A stretch of 64,000 nt of DNA, from contig NZ_OX365700.1 of assembly GCF_947241125.1 (NCBI RefSeq), forward strand, positions 4,436,461 to 4,500,460. The letters are read 5' to 3'. The translations under genes and the position numbers were made by a program. The notes beneath the pieces are model-generated. The model did no database searches and was not told the origin of the DNA. It saw only the letters and a program-made list of their open reading frames with translations. Of the stretch, positions 3,698 to 46,340 are shown one piece after another. Position 1 is the stretch's first letter. Each line of letters begins with the position of its first letter. The stretch is from Nitrospira tepida. Its GTDB lineage: Bacteria; Nitrospirota; Nitrospiria; Nitrospirales; Nitrospiraceae.

Positions 3698-3872
3698 CCA
3701 TCCCAACCTTTGGTTGAACCGGCGGCTTTTCTTCGTCGTATCGAAGCTGACGCCGCCGGAGAAACACCTCAGATGACTCTTGTTTCTTCTCTACACCACC
3801 TTTGGTTGAACGGCCGCCCTTTCGATGGCTCTTGGCGGCCGGAGAAAACCCAGCAGTGATCCTGCTTCTTCT
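3698..3872 (-). repeat. Leader-repeat locus A (two units)
   Basis: Two tandem units (3698-3790 and 3791-3872) of the dispersed structured repeat. Each begins, read on the plus strand, with a CAACC/GGTTG hairpin whose loop is TTT here, followed by a GC-rich stem and a GAGAAA-type block. Unit 2 has a different GC stem (GGCCGCC with GGCGGCC) from unit 1. The hairpin of unit 1 lies immediately upstream of the ribosome site of the CBS gene. Confidence 0.85.
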
Positions 3873-17760: not shown

Positions 17761-17776
17761 GGCTATACCCCCTTTG

Positions 17777-17808
17777 CGCCAACCTTCGGTTGAGCCGGCG
17801 GGCGTCTG
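17777..17808 (-). repeat. Leader-repeat locus B (partial)
   Basis: Only the terminal hairpin (CAACC, TTC loop, GGTTG) and the beginning of the GC-rich stem are recognisable. As at other loci, the hairpin lies directly upstream of the ribosome site, here of the DUF2892 gene. Confidence 0.75.
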
Positions 17809-17924
17809 ATCGCTGCCGCGGCACTGTGCCCGCGAGACCCAGCCGGTGGTGCATGCCCCGTTTGAGCAGCGCCCTGGATAAAGGATTCGCGCCACCCTTA
17901 CTCCTCATTTCACCTTCTACCTTC

Positions 17925-19833: not shown

Positions 19834-21249
19834 GTGGATCTGAACGTGCTCATCGTGGGCGGCGGCATCCACGGCGTGGGAATCCTGCATGACCTCGCCT
19901 CCCGCCGCATCGGGGGAGTTCACCTCGCTGAACGCGAACGGCTTGCCTCCGGCACATCAAGCCGAACGACCAAGCTCATGCACGGAGGTTTACGGTATCT
20001 CGCGCACCTGTCGCAATGGGGATTGGTCCGTGACGCGTTGAGGGAACGTGCGCTCCTCCTCAAGAATCTTCCTGAAGTCGTGCGTCCAATTCCGTTTGTC
20101 CTCCCTGTTTTTCGATCGGGCCGGCCCTCTTGGATGATTCGTCTTGGATTGCGCCTTTATGAGAGCTTGGCCACGACTGCCGATGACCTCCCTCGCGCGC
20201 GGCGACTTGGCCCTCACGAACTCGGTGAACTCGCGCCTTATCTCCATTCACACGTCCTTCAGCATGAGATAAGTACGGCATTCTTGTTCTATGAGGCTCA
20301 GATGCAGGACGATGTGATCGTCCGGCTTGCTGCGCGCGCCGCCGCTCGTCTCGGTGCCACCTATGCCGAAGAGACGTTCGTGGATCGCGTGGAGTGCGAC
20401 GGCCAGGGGTTTCGTGTCCGGTTGGTCGATGCGCAGGGCGTGAACGAGGTCACCTGTCGCGTGCTCGTGAATGCCGCGGGAGCCTGGTGCAATGCGAATT
20501 TATTACGCTGGGGATTCCTTCCGCAGGTGACGTGCCTCCTCAACGTCGGCTCTCATCTCGTCCTCTCTCCCTCCGCCATCCCGGCGAACCCGGACCACTG
20601 TGCCGCCGCGGCCCTTCAACATGAGGATGGCCGCCTGGTCTTCTTCATCCCCTGGGCCGGACGATGGCTCCTCGGCACGACTGAATCCCAGCTTGAGGGG
20701 ACGCCAGAGAAGTGGACCCACCCCCCAGGGGATCGTGAGTATCTGTTGAACATCGCGAAGCAGTATCTTGCCCTTGTTCACCCGGGCGAACAGGTGATCG
20801 AGGCCTTCTGCGGCATCAGGACCATTCCAATTGTGCGGCGGTCGGGACGCGCGAGCAGCAGAGTGACCTCCGGCTCATGGACTCAGGCTCCGTTCTCCTC
20901 ACCGTTTTACGTTCGGAAGTGGAATCACGAGACAGCGAGCCTCTCGCGCAAGGCCGTGATCGATGAGTACCCCGGCCACAGGTTGGTTTCCATCTACGGT
21001 GGAAAATTCACGACCTACCGCGCACTCAGCGAAACAGTGGGAGACCGGATTGCGCAGTGGCTGGGGCAGGGTGGGGAGTGCGGCACCAAGGCCAGACAGG
21101 CTTGGTTTCTCGATGACCTCCAACCGGCTGAGGCGCACCTGTTTCGCTCGCAGGCCGAGTTGCGGCAAGGCCGGATCTCCGATTGGAATAGCGGGCGGGT
21201 TATTCGTCAACCGTCATTCGTCAATCGTGGGATCGCCTCCTCCGATTGA
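19834..21249 (+). CDS. glpD: Glycerol-3-phosphate dehydrogenase-like FAD enzyme, C-terminus altered
   Basis: A 471-residue FAD-dependent oxidoreductase of the GlpD/DAO family. The start is a GTG at 19834. The FAD fold is at the N-terminus (VGGGIHGVG, residues 8-16), the family block GTSSRTTKLMHGGLRYLAH is near 40-58, and GGKFTTYRAL is near 389-398. GlpD normally continues with a C-terminal helical domain of about 120 residues; here only about 70 residues follow. The last part (RVIRQPSFVNRGIASSD) is translated from a short-word repeat array. The enzyme may thus be truncated or a natural short form. Nearby genes do not form a glycerol operon. Confidence 0.82.
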   Translation: MDLNVLIVGGGIHGVGILHDLASRRIGGVHLAERERLASGTSSRTTKLMHGGLRYLAHLSQWGLVRDALRERALLLKNLPEVVRPIPFVLPVFRSGRPSWMIRLGLRLYESLATTADDLPRARRLGPHELGELAPYLHSHVLQHEISTAFLFYEAQMQDDVIVRLAARAAARLGATYAEETFVDRVECDGQGFRVRLVDAQGVNEVTCRVLVNAAGAWCNANLLRWGFLPQVTCLLNVGSHLVLSPSAIPANPDHCAAAALQHEDGRLVFFIPWAGRWLLGTTESQLEGTPEKWTHPPGDREYLLNIAKQYLALVHPGEQVIEAFCGIRTIPIVRRSGRASSRVTSGSWTQAPFSSPFYVRKWNHETASLSRKAVIDEYPGHRLVSIYGGKFTTYRALSETVGDRIAQWLGQGGECGTKARQAWFLDDLQPAEAHLFRSQAELRQGRISDWNSGRVIRQPSFVNRGIASSD

Positions 21250-21262
21250 CGGTTGACCATCG
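21200..21262. repeat. Short-word array at glpD 3' end
   Basis: Words such as ATTCGTCAACCGTCATTCG and GATTGACGGTTGACC form the last codons, the stop codon and the region beyond the glpD-like gene. Confidence 0.7.
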
Positions 21263-21284
21263 ATGGATTTCGATAAGACGACGA

Positions 21285-21450
21285 AGCGGCGTCGGATCTA
21301 GCAAAGCTTGGTATGGGAACAAAGGCGAGAAGCATCACTGAAGGTGTCTCTCCGACGGCATCCATGAAGAGGGGCTTCGCCCGATGGGCCGCCGGCTCAA
21401 GGGAAGCTTAGTATGGCTTGCCGTTCAACCGAAGGTTGGTATAAAGGTGC
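21285..21450 (+). repeat. Leader-repeat locus C (plus orientation)
   Basis: This is the only copy in the opposite orientation, matching the plus-strand gene that follows. It shows the AGC-AAA-GCT variant hairpin at about 21295-21312, a GC stem with inner GGGGCTTCGCCC at about 21373, and the terminal hairpin CAACC-GAA-GGTTG at 21426-21438, immediately before the ribosome site of the ybaK-like gene. Confidence 0.82.
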
Positions 21451-21454
21451 GGCC

Positions 21455-21937
21455 ATGAGTATCGCGAGGAAACTCAAAGCATATCTCGATCGCGAACACG
21501 TCCACTATGACGTCCTGCCTCACCCGGAAGCCTTTCGCGCGATTGAGATCGCCCGTGCGCTCCACGCCCCTGAGAAGGAACTGGCGAAGGTCGTGATAAT
21601 GAAGGTGGACGCGAGATTTGTCATGACCGTGCTGCCGGCCGGTTGGCTCGTGGATCTCCACCGCCTCCGTGATGTCTTCCGGACCCATCACGTCCGATTA
21701 GCGACCGAGGAGGAGTTCAAAGATCTCTTCCCGGACTGCGAGTTGGGCGCCATGCCGCCGTTCGGAAACCTCTACGGGCTGGACGTATACGCTGATCGAT
21801 CGCTCACAGAAGACGAACAGATCATCTTTCAGGCCGGCACCCATTCGGAAGCGATCCGCATGCGCTACATGGACTTCGCCTCACTGGTTTTTCCGGTCGT
21901 GGCGGAGTTCCATCAGTTACACTCAACGGTCCGGTGA
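21455..21937 (+). CDS. YbaK/EbsC-type aminoacyl-tRNA deacylase domain protein
   Basis: A 160-residue cytoplasmic protein with the YbaK fold: YDVLPHPEAFRAIEIARAL, KELAKVVIMKVDARFVMTVL with the family lysine in AKVV, and GAMPPFGNLYGLDVYAD near 110. Such domains remove mischarged amino acids from tRNA in trans. Some members of this DUF/YbaK subgroup are stress-linked. ATG 21455 follows AAAGG, which directly abuts the terminal hairpin of repeat locus C. Confidence 0.85.
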   Translation: MSIARKLKAYLDREHVHYDVLPHPEAFRAIEIARALHAPEKELAKVVIMKVDARFVMTVLPAGWLVDLHRLRDVFRTHHVRLATEEEFKDLFPDCELGAMPPFGNLYGLDVYADRSLTEDEQIIFQAGTHSEAIRMRYMDFASLVFPVVAEFHQLHSTVR

Positions 21938-27637: not shown

Positions 27638-29038
27638 CTAACTCCGCCCTTCGCCGCTCACGAGGGCCAATCTGGCCTGCCCCACCTTTAGATCGTAGAA
27701 CGAGCGGAGCCGGTTCTGCTTGGCCTGATTGAGGACAAGTTCGGCGGTCAGGAGATCCAAGACCGGCGCGATCCCGGACTGATACCGGTTGCCGATGATG
27801 CGCAGGTTTTCCTCGGCCTGGGCCACGGCGCTTTCGCTCACGGCGATCCGCTCCTTCGCCGCCGCGACTCCGTAATAGGCCTCGACGACCTCCACTTCGA
27901 TCTCGCGCCGCTTCGCCTCCAATTGCTCGCGCGCCTTTTCCTCCTGCGCCCGCGCCTTGCGGACATGCGCCGCGTCGCTGAGGCCGTTGAAGAGGTTCAC
28001 GCTGAACATGCCGAAGGCTCCGTAGTTGCTCTGGCCGTTCGGGCCCAAGGGAAACGTGCTGTTGTTCTCGAAGCTGCCCTGAAGATTCAGATTGGGGAGA
28101 TACGACGATTTGCTGAGCTTGGTGGTCATTTGCGCCTTGCGCAGCTCCGCCGCCATCATGCGATAGTCCGGTCTGGTGTCCAGCGCGCGCGCGATGACCG
28201 CCTCCAGCCTCTGATCCGCGACCGTCCCCTGGGACAGGCTGTCGGCCGTATCGACCGCTTCATTCAGCCCGATCGCGTGCTGCAAGGCGACCGCGGTGAT
28301 GTGCAGCATTTGCTCCGCGCGAATGGACTCCTCCCGCAGACCCGCCAGGCGGACATCCGCCTGCAAGAGATCGGATTTCACCGTCGCCCCGCTTTTGTAC
28401 CGCGCGGCGATCTGCCTGGCGTTGGCCTCCGCAATCTGCACCGCATCCGTGGCGACCTTTCGAACCGCCTTCGCGAGCGCCAGATCGTAATAGCCCCTGG
28501 TGACGGTGAAGAACACCCGTTGCCTGGCATGTTCATAGCCTTCGGTGGACGCTTGGTGCCCCAACTCGGCGATCTTGACGCCGAGTTGTTCGCGGCCGCC
28601 GTTATAGATGGGTTGGACGAGGTTCAAAGCCGACCGGTAGTTCTCGATCGAGCCGGGACGGTTGAGCGTATTGATGTCGAATCCCGCCTGGGTGAACCGG
28701 CCCTGATTGAGCTGAATGGCGAAAGATTGAGCCGGATTATTCGTGTTGGTCCAGGCTTCGATCGCGTCCAGCTTCGGCAGATAGGCGGCTTTCGCGATCT
28801 CCTGCTGGGCCTCCGCGGAGTGCAGCTCCTGCCGCGAAGCCCGCAGCACGGGGCTGTGCTGCGACGCCAGGTCGAGCGCCTCTTCCAATGTGACGGCGCG
28901 GGCGGCCTGTGCCGCGGCTTCCCCCGCGGGGAGGACGACCGCAATGTTCCATACAACGAGCGCACCGCCGAAACACAGGACCTGCGCAACTCTGCCTACG
29001 GACCAGCCCGTTGATGCCGCCGTTCGATGTCGGACCAT
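27638..29038 (-). CDS. TolC-family outer-membrane efflux channel
   Basis: A 466-residue exported protein with two OEP repeats of long alternating helices (for example EEALDLASQHSPVLRASRQE, and later AAAKERIAVSESAVAQAEEN and NRYQSGIAPVLDLL). It should form the outer-membrane duct of the RND system encoded downstream. The start at 29038 has GGAGGGGGG upstream. Longer in-frame readings would translate the leader repeats at 29051-29545 and are rejected. Confidence 0.92.
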   Translation of the reverse strand: MVRHRTAASTGWSVGRVAQVLCFGGALVVWNIAVVLPAGEAAAQAARAVTLEEALDLASQHSPVLRASRQELHSAEAQQEIAKAAYLPKLDAIEAWTNTNNPAQSFAIQLNQGRFTQAGFDINTLNRPGSIENYRSALNLVQPIYNGGREQLGVKIAELGHQASTEGYEHARQRVFFTVTRGYYDLALAKAVRKVATDAVQIAEANARQIAARYKSGATVKSDLLQADVRLAGLREESIRAEQMLHITAVALQHAIGLNEAVDTADSLSQGTVADQRLEAVIARALDTRPDYRMMAAELRKAQMTTKLSKSSYLPNLNLQGSFENNSTFPLGPNGQSNYGAFGMFSVNLFNGLSDAAHVRKARAQEEKAREQLEAKRREIEVEVVEAYYGVAAAKERIAVSESAVAQAEENLRIIGNRYQSGIAPVLDLLTAELVLNQAKQNRLRSFYDLKVGQARLALVSGEGRS

Positions 29039-29050
29039 GAGATCCCCCCT

Positions 29051-29545
29051 CCATACCAACCTTCGGTTGAGCTGGCCGCCCCTTTGATGGTTCTTGGCGG
29101 CCGGAGAAAACACCTCACGGGATTTCTCCCGCCTTTTCTCCATACCAACCTTCGGTTGAGCCGCGGGCCATACCAACCTTGGTTGAACCGCCCGCTCTTT
29201 ATTGCTGTATCGAATATGATGCGGGCGGAGAAACCCCTTTAGCGTTTCTCTCGCCCTGGTTATGCTTCCATCGGATGGCTTCATTGACGCCCGCGGAGAA
29301 ATCCCTTCAGCGAGTCTTTATTCCTCGAAACCAAGCTTCGCTAGAACCGGCGGCTCATCGGGCGAAGCCCGTCTTCATGGACGCCGCCGGAGAAACACCT
29401 CACGGGATTTCTCCCGTCTTTTCTCCATCCCAACCTTCGCTTGAACCGTCGGCTCTTTATCGTCTTTTCGTAACGGCGCCGGCGGAGAAGCACCTTGCAC
29501 ATTTCCCTTCCTCTGGTTTTCATACGCCGCCGGAGACCTGCCTGC
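29051..29545 (-). repeat. Leader-repeat locus D (about six units, largest array)
   Basis: Tandem and partial units of the leader repeat. Distinct GC stems show compensatory pairing: GGCCGCC 29074-29080 with GGCGGCC 29096-29102; CCGCCCGC 29188-29195 with GCGGGCGG 29221-29228; CCGGCGGC 29347-29354 with GCCGCCGG 29383-29390. The last encloses GGGC 29360-29363 with GCCC 29367-29370. The terminal hairpin lies directly before the ribosome site of the TolC gene. No gene is seen in 29039-29592. Confidence 0.88.
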
Positions 29546-30583: not shown

Positions 30584-30678
30584 TCCATACCAAGCTTTGC
30601 TAGAACCGGCGGCTCATCGGGCGAAGCCCCTCTTCATTATCGCCGCCGGAGACACCCCTCCAGTGATTACTCTCTAAC
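30584..30678 (-). repeat. Leader-repeat locus E (one unit)
   Basis: One nearly complete unit with the CAAGC/TAG-type hairpin variant, a CCGGCGGC stem with inner GGGC-GAA-GCCC, and the following GAGACACCCCTC block. It overlaps the stop region of the glucan phosphorylase gene. Unlike the other loci it is not next to a start codon; the next gene on this strand begins at 30162, beyond the MITE-like element. Confidence 0.82.
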
Positions 30679-32431
30679 TTTCATGCGAAGTGGACTCTCC
30701 CGCCCGGTTGTTTTGATCCAGATAGCGACCGACGGCTTGATAGGCCATATGCAGGTACTGCGCCACCATCCGGTGCGTGTTGAAAAACGACCCGTTCAAC
30801 GCAATCACGTGACGCATCATGTCGCGATACCGCTCCTGCTCCTGATAGAAACAGGGCAGCACCCGATGCTCCAACGCATCATAGAGCGCCTCCGCATGAC
30901 AGGCATCCAGCCCGGGCTCCGGCTGCTCACAGATGTCGATCCGCTCCCCGATCGCCCAACCGGTCACCCCCTCCACATGCCCTTCGATCCACCATCCGTC
31001 CAGCACACTCAAGCTCGGCAGGCCGTTCACGGCCGCCTTCATCCCGCTGGTCCCCGACGCCTCCAGCGGCGGCACGGGTGTGTTGAGCCAGACGTCCGAT
31101 CCCGCGCAGAGGAGCCTCGCCGTTTGCATATCGTAGTTCGGCAGGTACGTGATCGCCACTATGTCCCGAAGCCGCTCCTTCACCTCATGGACGCGCCAGA
31201 TGATGGCCTTCCCCTCGTGATCGCGCGGGTGCGCCTTCCCGGCGAAGATGATTTGGAGGGGACCGGTCTGTTTGACGATGCCGACGAGCCGATCGAGATC
31301 GTGAAACAGCAGCAGGAAGCGCTTGTAGGCCGTGGCCCGGCGGGCAAAGCCGACCGTCAGGGCATCGCAATTCATGCCCGCGTTCGTGACGCGATTGACC
31401 GTATCGAGCAGCGCGCGTTTGGCTTCCTGATGGGCCTGCCATAGCTCATCGGTCGGAATGCCGACCGCGTAGCGCAGTGACAGAAAATCACGCCGCCAAT
31501 CGGGAAGGTGCCGATCATAGAGCCGCTGAAAGGGCGGGGCGGCCCAGGTCGCGGCATGCACCCCATTCGTGATCGAATGGATCGGGTAGCCGGGAAACAG
31601 CCCGCGGGAGACTTCCCCGTGTTTCATCGCCACGCCGTTGATGTACCGCGCGCACCGGAGCGCCAATTCCGTCATGTTCAACGATGCGTTGTCCCAACAT
31701 GCCGCGAGCAGAGCCCAGAAGCGCTCGCCCAACACCCGGCGGGCCAGATCGGCCGGAAACTGGTCGTGACCCGCGGGCACCGGCGTATGCGTCGTAAAGA
31801 CGCAATGTTCGCGCACGGCTTCCAAAGCCGCCTTGCAGGACATCTGTGGCTGCGATCCCTCTGCCATCCGTTGTTCAAGCAGCCCGAGCACCAACAGGGC
31901 CGCGTGGCCCTCGTTGAGATGGTAGCGATACAGATCCCGGTAGCCCAGCGAGGCCAACATGCGGATCCCCCCGATGCCGAGGATCACCTCCTGGCAGAGA
32001 CGGTAATAGGCGTCGCCGCCGTACAAGACATCGGTCAGACGCCGATCCTCAGCCGTGTTCTGCGGCAGGTCCGCGTCCAGGAAATAGACTGGCACGGCGG
32101 AGCCGGAGATTCCCCTGACCAGATGGCGCCAGGCCCGCAGATGGACGGTTCGACCTTCCACCTCGACGCAGGCCCTGGCCTCCAGCGCTTCCGCATAGTC
32201 CTCGACCGCCCAGGACACGGGCTCTTCCGTCTGATTTCCGGCCGCGTCCAGATGCTGGAAGAAATAGCCGCGCCGATGGAGCAGCGACACGGCGACCATG
32301 GGAATGTCGAGGTCGGCCGCGGAACGGATGGTGTCGCCCGCCAGCACGCCGAGCCCGCCGGCATAGGTAGGCATGCCGGCTTCGAGCCCGATCTCCATCG
32401 AAAAGTAGGCGACCAGCGGGTCTCGCGTCAT
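30674..32431 (-). CDS. glgP: Alpha-glucan phosphorylase (short GlgP-type)
   Basis: A 585-residue glycosyltransferase-family-35 enzyme, shorter than classical glycogen phosphorylase (about 800). It shows [14 protein letters not shown] with the PLP-binding lysine K465, plus [12 protein letters not shown] near 169 and the [12 protein letters not shown] stretch near 214. It releases glucose-1-phosphate from storage glucan or maltodextrin. ATG 32431 overlaps the antiporter stop by four bases (ATGA), so the two are translationally coupled. Confidence 0.92.
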
Positions 32432-46090: not shown

Positions 46091-46340
46091 CCATACCAAC
46101 CTTCGGTTGAACCGGCGACTCATCGGGCGAAGCCCCTCTTCATTGACGCCGCCGGAGGAACACCTCAAGTGATTCTTCTCCCTTTCTCTCCATACCAACC
46201 TTTGGTTGAACCGGCGGCTCATCGGGCGAAGCCCCTCTATACCAAGCTTCGCTTGAACCGCGGGCTCTTTATCGTCTTTTCATGCCTGCGCCGGCGGAGA
46301 AGCACCGACGCTCGTCAACCTTCTTCCGGTTTTCATAGGC
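46091..46340 (-). repeat. Leader-repeat locus F (three units)
   Basis: Three tandem units: 46091-46189, 46190-46237 (short) and 46238-46340. Unit 3 has hairpin CAAGC 46243-46247 with GCTTG 46251-46255, a compensatory change relative to CAACC/GGTTG in units 1 and 2. The first hairpin is directly upstream of the CDGSH gene ribosome site. A minus-strand frame runs through all units without a stop. No separate gene is seen in this gap. Confidence 0.87.

Follow-up and report, generated by a model that had tools for sequence, protein, structure and literature searches.

The window, a 64,000-nucleotide stretch of the Nitrospira tepida genome, carries at 29051-29545 an array built of repeat units of about 90-99 nt. 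The head of the array directly adjoins the Shine-Dalgarno sequence and start codon of a gene encoding an outer membrane efflux protein, the head of unit 1 being flush with CCTCC (29048-29052), the complement of the Shine-Dalgarno. The gene, the components of the array and the other units found in the window are the following:

27638..29038, minus strand: outer membrane efflux protein gene (Pfam OEP), start codon 29036-29038
29051..29139, plus strand: unit 1; terminal hairpin 29057-29069, outer stem 29072-29080 with 29096-29104
29140..29325, plus strand: unit 2, an outer unit whose loop contains a nested unit; terminal hairpin at 29146-29158, outer stem formed by 29161-29168 and 29289-29296
29168..29262, plus strand: nested unit, with its terminal hairpin at 29174-29185 and an outer stem formed by 29188-29195 and 29221-29228
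29326..29424, plus strand: full unit with an imperfect terminal hairpin (29332-29344), an outer stem formed by 29347-29354 and 29383-29390, and an inner hairpin (29360-29370)
29425..29519, plus strand: full unit, whose terminal hairpin at 29431-29443 has one broken pair (CAACC against GCTTG) and whose outer stem (29446-29453 and 29478-29485) contains one mismatch
29520..29545, plus strand: 3' remnant of a further unit, with GCCGCCGG at 29526-29533 and without its 5' arm
3698..3793, plus strand: further unit of the same family as the array
17774..17865, plus strand: degenerate unit that immediately precedes a native Shine-Dalgarno, AAGGGGGT
21208..21444, minus strand: cluster upstream of an aminoacyl-tRNA editing domain gene
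30585..30683, plus strand: further unit
46091..46334, plus strand: cluster, in which an outer unit beginning at 46190 holds a nested unit (46237-46334) in its loop
55863..56054, plus strand: two further units

The reading frame of the aminoacyl-tRNA editing domain is listed as 21413-21937, and in the sequence its ATG comes after the cluster 21208..21444. Two other repetitive stretches lie in the window. Intergenic runs of TTGACGA/ATTCGTCA-type words at 21180-21260 probably belong to another repeat family, and similar runs occur downstream of the cluster in L121; the segment 30322-30508 represents yet another dispersed repeat, about 185 bp long, of which the relative G002 has dozens of copies.

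On the plus strand, the unit begins with the head ATACCAACC-TTC-GGTTGA, a 5-bp hairpin with a three-base loop, followed by an outer stem of about 8 bp whose loop is of three main kinds, one of them containing GGGC-GAA-GCCC. The 3' part, as delineated from folds and from alignment A1, comprises a weaker hairpin, AGAAaCAC/GTGaTTCT, and a pyrimidine-rich tail. Within clusters the units follow one another head to tail, and they are also nested in the loops of other units. The sequence-only reading had described the outer stem as existing within the array in three versions, different in sequence and perfectly paired, and all three are present: GGCCGCC (29074-29080) pairs with GGCGGCC (29096-29102), CCGCCCGC (29188-29195) with GCGGGCGG (29221-29228) and CCGGCGGC (29347-29354) with GCCGCCGG (29383-29390). 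An additional stem, CCGCGGGC (29161-29168) with GCCCGCGG (29289-29296), encloses the whole nested unit. The terminal hairpin CAACC/GGTTG was likewise located at 29057-29069 and 29146-29158, its variant CAAGC/GCTTG at 46243-46255 and the inner GGGC-GAA-GCCC hairpin at 29360-29370. The weaker third hairpin proposed in the same reading exists too, although its pairing is kept less well (56 to 76% of cells paired). When three window units were folded as RNA and compared with their own shuffles, one was unremarkable (z of -0.39 and -1.27 for the two strands) and the other two gave z values from -2.05 to -4.10.

The window is part of a single contig of 4,731,961 bases, in a genome of 4.73 Mb. A covariance model built from 40 units (R1) detected at least 138 units at E≤0.01, with 150 of the 2050 first-look candidates scored. 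These units form 63 clusters, of which 24 are single, 21 are double and the longest contains seven units. The family is not restricted to this genome: an exact 20-mer of the head was found in 43 stretches of the species collection, 41 of them titled Nitrospira, Nitrospirae, Nitrospiraceae or Nitrospirota. In a set of 61 genomes, analysed with stricter filters (E≤1e-4), units were present in 30 of the 37 members of the same family, while outside the family but within the order only 2 of 24 genomes were positive, with one match each. The number of units ranged from 1 to 68 per positive family genome, and from 0 to 68 across genomes. Rfam covariance models gave no match anywhere in the window, and the best Rfam hit of the repeat, tfoR, reached 19 bits against the 70 needed for the gathering score. 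No description of this Nitrospira repeat was found in the portion of the literature that the search returned.

The most striking result, new with respect to the sequence-only reading, is the placement of the repeat at gene edges. Inspection of the flanks of all 63 clusters revealed two settings, the CCA end of a tRNA or tmRNA gene and the position upstream of a Shine-Dalgarno. In the tRNA setting the CCA of the head is the CCA of the tRNA; 10 of the 45 tRNA genes end exactly at a unit start (one base before the unit), and so does the tmRNA gene. In the gene-start setting the head lies directly after CCT on the strand opposite to the gene, and hence the unit, read on the mRNA strand, has TATGGAGG at its end, followed by the start codon. 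An antisense ATG at 4-13 nt from the head, opening a frame of at least 60 codons, accompanied 33 of the 63 clusters; the same criterion was satisfied at 906 of 20000 random positions, at 0 to 9 of 63 when the heads were shifted by 20-300 nt, and at 1 of 63 tails. A looser criterion, any start codon within 25 nt, gave 39 of 63 clusters and fired at 1140 of 4000 random positions; since it fires so often at random, that count is not used as evidence. Loose automatic sorting divided the clusters into 39 'CDS', 8 tRNA and 16 other. Four of the 39 are doubtful (163647, 878683, 2259933 and 2614598). By eye, ten of the 16 could be placed: one at the tmRNA, four at tRNA 3' halves, four as outer heads of nested units beside a start codon and one at a possible GTG start (4467045), leaving six unplaced. 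Orientation is identical in all placed clusters.

The same rule is seen in other species. Among 54 units in 47 clusters, from 40 stretches of five other genomes, 14 clusters are flush with a tRNA or tmRNA, 13 of them at exactly the same offset, 15 lie beside an ATG, 3 beside another possible start and 15 beside neither, many of the latter following another unit or unit fragment. The cluster at 2614598 of the present genome (G000) abuts the 5' end of a tRNA-Ser gene beginning GGAGGGG, and the same placement was read by eye in G018 (L251 1001). These cases hint that the sequence GGAGG is read, rather than its function. Isolated tRNA 3' halves followed by repeat clusters were also noticed, by eye, at 668296, 1649455, 2798531 and 3999936, a pattern as expected where an integrated island displaced the old downstream flank. 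Small bacterial repeats are usually called loosely extragenic, whereas this family is positioned with single-base exactness at two functional gene edges, in one orientation and in many genera. Such placement implies either a target-choosing mechanism not described so far or some role of the repeat at the ends of tRNAs and at ribosome-binding sites.

Comparison of homologous sites indicates that the repeat is mobile. Upstream of leuA in G000, a T-box leader (L124 2242-2473; E 8e-18, with 86.1 bits against a gathering score of 93) is followed by a unit at 2501-2599 and by the start codon at 2609; the unit, being between T-box and gene, is therefore inside the leader of the transcript. In the close relative G020 the leuA T-box is over the gathering score and no unit is present. 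In G022 the unit upstream of leuA is inside a different inverted-repeat element, which by eye G001, of the same genus, has without the unit. No unit was found in the syntenic stretches of the relatives G002 and G020. At 17774 both relatives keep the Shine-Dalgarno AAGGGGGT without the unit, and therefore the unit did not bring the Shine-Dalgarno with it. Other inverted-repeat elements were seen in these surroundings: one of about 160 bp between T-box leader and leuA in many relatives (L197-L217 and others), and one of about 300 bp with ends CTAACCCGCATTATTCATGA / TCATGAATAATGCGGGTTAG and a unit inside (L119 ~2446-2711 and L126 ~2446-2741, with related stretches in L112 and L140).

Regarding the target, C, C and A occupy positions 1-3 in 92, 90 and 94% of the 63 first units, far above the 51, 45 and 61% of the 75 inner units, which suggests that CC is part of the target. 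At leuA the unit is flanked by GGAGG on either side, which pointed to a target-site duplication; over 39 tails this was not confirmed, 10 of them containing CCTCC against a shuffled mean of 9.95. Nor does the repeat behave as a MITE, since CCTCC is not duplicated at the tails and, in alignment A1, the unit ends are not inverted copies of each other. The spacers are too diverged to have yielded an exact pair of filled and empty sites, and for this reason the unit ends and the absence of duplication rest on averages. An autonomous partner carrying a unit at its end was considered and rejected: four units, at 163647, 878683, 1419754 and 2800385, are located within or next to a further small element with inverted repeats, and at two of these four places no transposase was recognized by eye in the listed frames.

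The paired changes in the stems are real, and the case for them is stronger than could be shown from the window sequence at first reading. The 40 units of alignment A1 (45 found, 3 doubtful ones dropped and 2 cut off) were picked for pairing, so that their pairing counts are not used as proof. In a structure-blind test, units of other genomes were instead picked by the exact 20-mer head, with pairing unused. Of 42 sites, 40 were long enough, L059 and L072 having been dropped as non-Nitrospira stretches without the stem. A perfect downstream partner of the unit's own 7-nt arm was found in 33 of the 40 units (36 with at most one mismatch), which contain 18 distinct arms. The differing arms of other units matched perfectly in 1 of 1464 comparisons and with one mismatch in 366 of 1464, and shuffled downstream sequence gave 0.3% perfect partners and 5.8% with one mismatch. 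In the own genome, 14 of 30 units selected by a 16-mer (at most one mismatch) had a perfect partner, against 35 of 802 for other arms; the seven units lacking a partner within one mismatch include some that are truncated and some outer ones in which a nested unit separates the arm from its partner. Model-aligned rows gave a concordant picture, with the outer stem paired in 96.2% of cells and 7 of 8 pairs changed on both sides in 129 distinct rows of the own genome, and 98.6% and 6 of 8 pairs, respectively, in 54 rows of other genomes, where the head hairpin was 96.9% paired with both-side changes at three pairs. The structure-fitted alignments (A2, A3, A5 and A6) lean towards pairing, hence the structure-blind test is safer than these counts. 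The third hairpin was paired in 75.7 and 73.7% of cells in the own genome and in 66.5 and 56.4% in other genomes. In alignment A1 the head sequence hardly varies, and neither do the two terminal pairs of the outer stem.

From changes that keep the pairing, the sequence-only reading had concluded selection on structure. The covariation is genuine, family-wide and survives the structure-blind test, and therefore a folded single strand mattered for the units at some level. The step to selection is not proven, because template-switch repair of imperfect palindromes also yields paired changes without it. An inert repeat whose imperfect inverted repeats are perfected by template switching at replication forks is, in our estimation, a rather doubtful account. 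It would explain paired changes lacking strand preference in the outer stem, where short arms lie about 15-30 nt apart, and the mismatches that remain include every type: of 59 mismatched cells in the outer stem, 22 are neither G-T nor A-C. However, the weaker third hairpin has not been corrected likewise, and the near fixation of the head and of the end pairs of the outer stem suggests recognition.

Wobble pairs may tell which strand folds: a leader RNA under selection would tolerate G-U on the mRNA strand and not on the other. In the CDS settings the outer stem has 10 wobble cells (G-T) on the plus strand, which is antisense to the mRNA, versus 9 on the mRNA strand; in the tRNA settings there are 9 on the transcribed strand versus 2. 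In the head hairpin, over all settings of the own genome, the counts are 20 versus 3 in favour of the plus strand (antisense to the mRNA in CDS settings) and, with the strand-reversed model R2, made to check the lean introduced by structure fitting and leaning the opposite way, still 19 versus 4. In other genomes, two models gave 8 versus 1 and 7 versus 1 for the head hairpin, and 6 versus 1 in both for the outer stem. Related copies are not independent, so that this bias is a tilt and not proof; it fits the plus strand as the folded one, either as single-stranded DNA or as RNA behind tRNAs. As to the level of the structure, earlier given as DNA or RNA, these counts tend to speak against a folded mRNA leader as the conserved entity.

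The same counts bear on a cis-acting RNA role, in which the leader fold beside the Shine-Dalgarno would tune translation or stability and the fold behind tRNAs would aid 3' processing or termination. The fixed-orientation placement at transcribed gene edges, the strong covariation of the stems, the leuA unit lying within the transcript and the terminator-like matches around the array (4 versus 0.9 expected, three of them inside the array) agree with such a role. It nevertheless appears unlikely: tRNA and CDS settings use opposite strands, the same genes lack units in close relatives, the unit number varies from 0 to 68 between genomes and no Rfam family matches. Moreover, selection for leader RNA is not supported, because wobble pairs do not favour the mRNA strand, being evenly split in the outer stem and favouring the other strand in the head hairpin.

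Taking these results together, we propose, with a probability of about one half, that the units are a previously undescribed mobile repeat of the Nitrospira family, non-autonomous and dependent on its hairpins for propagation. A mobile repeat with a recognised folded form would account at once for the copy number and spread of the units, their nesting, their gain and loss, and their pairing and orientation. Placement is strict, the head (ATACC..) standing directly 3' of CC on one strand; this CC represents the CCA terminus of a tRNA or tmRNA gene in one setting and the Shine-Dalgarno complement in the other. In the model, a unit would enter directly 3' of the CC site, without target duplication, via a single-stranded folded DNA form recognised by a putative enzyme, and tandem copying would then lengthen the clusters. 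The arm sequence would be free to change while pairing holds, since pairing is what the putative enzyme would read, and copies would survive because the placement leaves tRNA, ribosome-binding site and coding sequence intact. CC alone cannot explain why other intergenic CC sites stay unused. With so many natural arm variants, each of them paired, the question is open to direct test in genomes already available and in simple reporter constructs.

A bolder version, to which we attach a low probability, is that an undescribed Nitrospiraceae system other than Y1 joins the hairpin repeat exactly to tRNA and tmRNA CCA ends and upstream of Shine-Dalgarno sequences, with the by-product that tRNA-trailer RNAs could pair in trans with leaders. 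If this were true, one strand of the repeat would be present in tRNA trailers and the complementary strand in the leaders of dozens of mRNAs, beside their ribosome-binding sites.

RAYT transposases are known movers of similar repeats, and the genome has 8 Y1_Tnp matches, several of which we take to be RAYT-like in length and sequence. Two near-identical pairs of such RAYT-like genes were noticed in G000 (1369516 with 3620549, and 3240659 with 3242474), which would be unusual if RAYTs are single-copy. Despite the Y1_Tnp matches and the likeness in short, clustered hairpin repeats, a REP/REPIN family moved by RAYT (Y1) transposases is very improbable and RAYT was rejected as the mover, because no unit occurs in 37,005 bases (five stretches) around the Y1_Tnp matches and because the unit-rich genomes G004 (61 units, 95% complete), G018 (49 units, 100% complete), G023 (24 units) and G028 (21 units) have no Y1_Tnp match. 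A mobilising enzyme for the proposed mobile repeat was not found, Y1_Tnp being the single-stranded DNA transposase that was tested.

The Nitrospira repeat shares traits with several known systems. REPs, REPINs and BIMEs with their RAYTs are likewise short, GC-rich, hairpin-forming, extragenic, non-coding and clustered in many copies. In PMC3733652, the REP super-families are defined by a simple short hairpin that bears GTAG or CGTC as a tag at its foot, and REPs are located downstream from coding regions. The Nitrospira unit, in contrast, is composed of three hairpins over about 90-99 nt, has in alignment A1 no GTAG or CGTC tag flanking either the head hairpin or the outer stem, and shows no link to Y1; its clusters are arranged head to tail, with fixed placement at tRNA CCA ends and Shine-Dalgarno sites.

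The MIRUs of mycobacteria are, like the Nitrospira repeat, small tandem repeats with a fixed orientation, found close to start codons in the spaces that separate co-directional genes. MIRUs, however, carry reading frames and sit at overlapping stop and start codons, whereas the Nitrospira units are built of hairpins and are also found behind tRNAs and the tmRNA. In single-stranded DNA transposition of the IS200/IS605 type, insertion takes place 3' of a short target on one strand, with a hairpin near the end and without target duplication. The repeat matches this scheme in its proposed insertion 3' of a short one-strand target, the hairpin near its end and the lack of duplication, although no such transposase could be linked to the units and their targets are gene edges. 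In integron attC sites, finally, the folded strand matters more than the sequence; leaving integrase, cassettes and attC core sites aside from the comparison, it is this precedence of the folded strand over its sequence that the Nitrospira units have in common with them.
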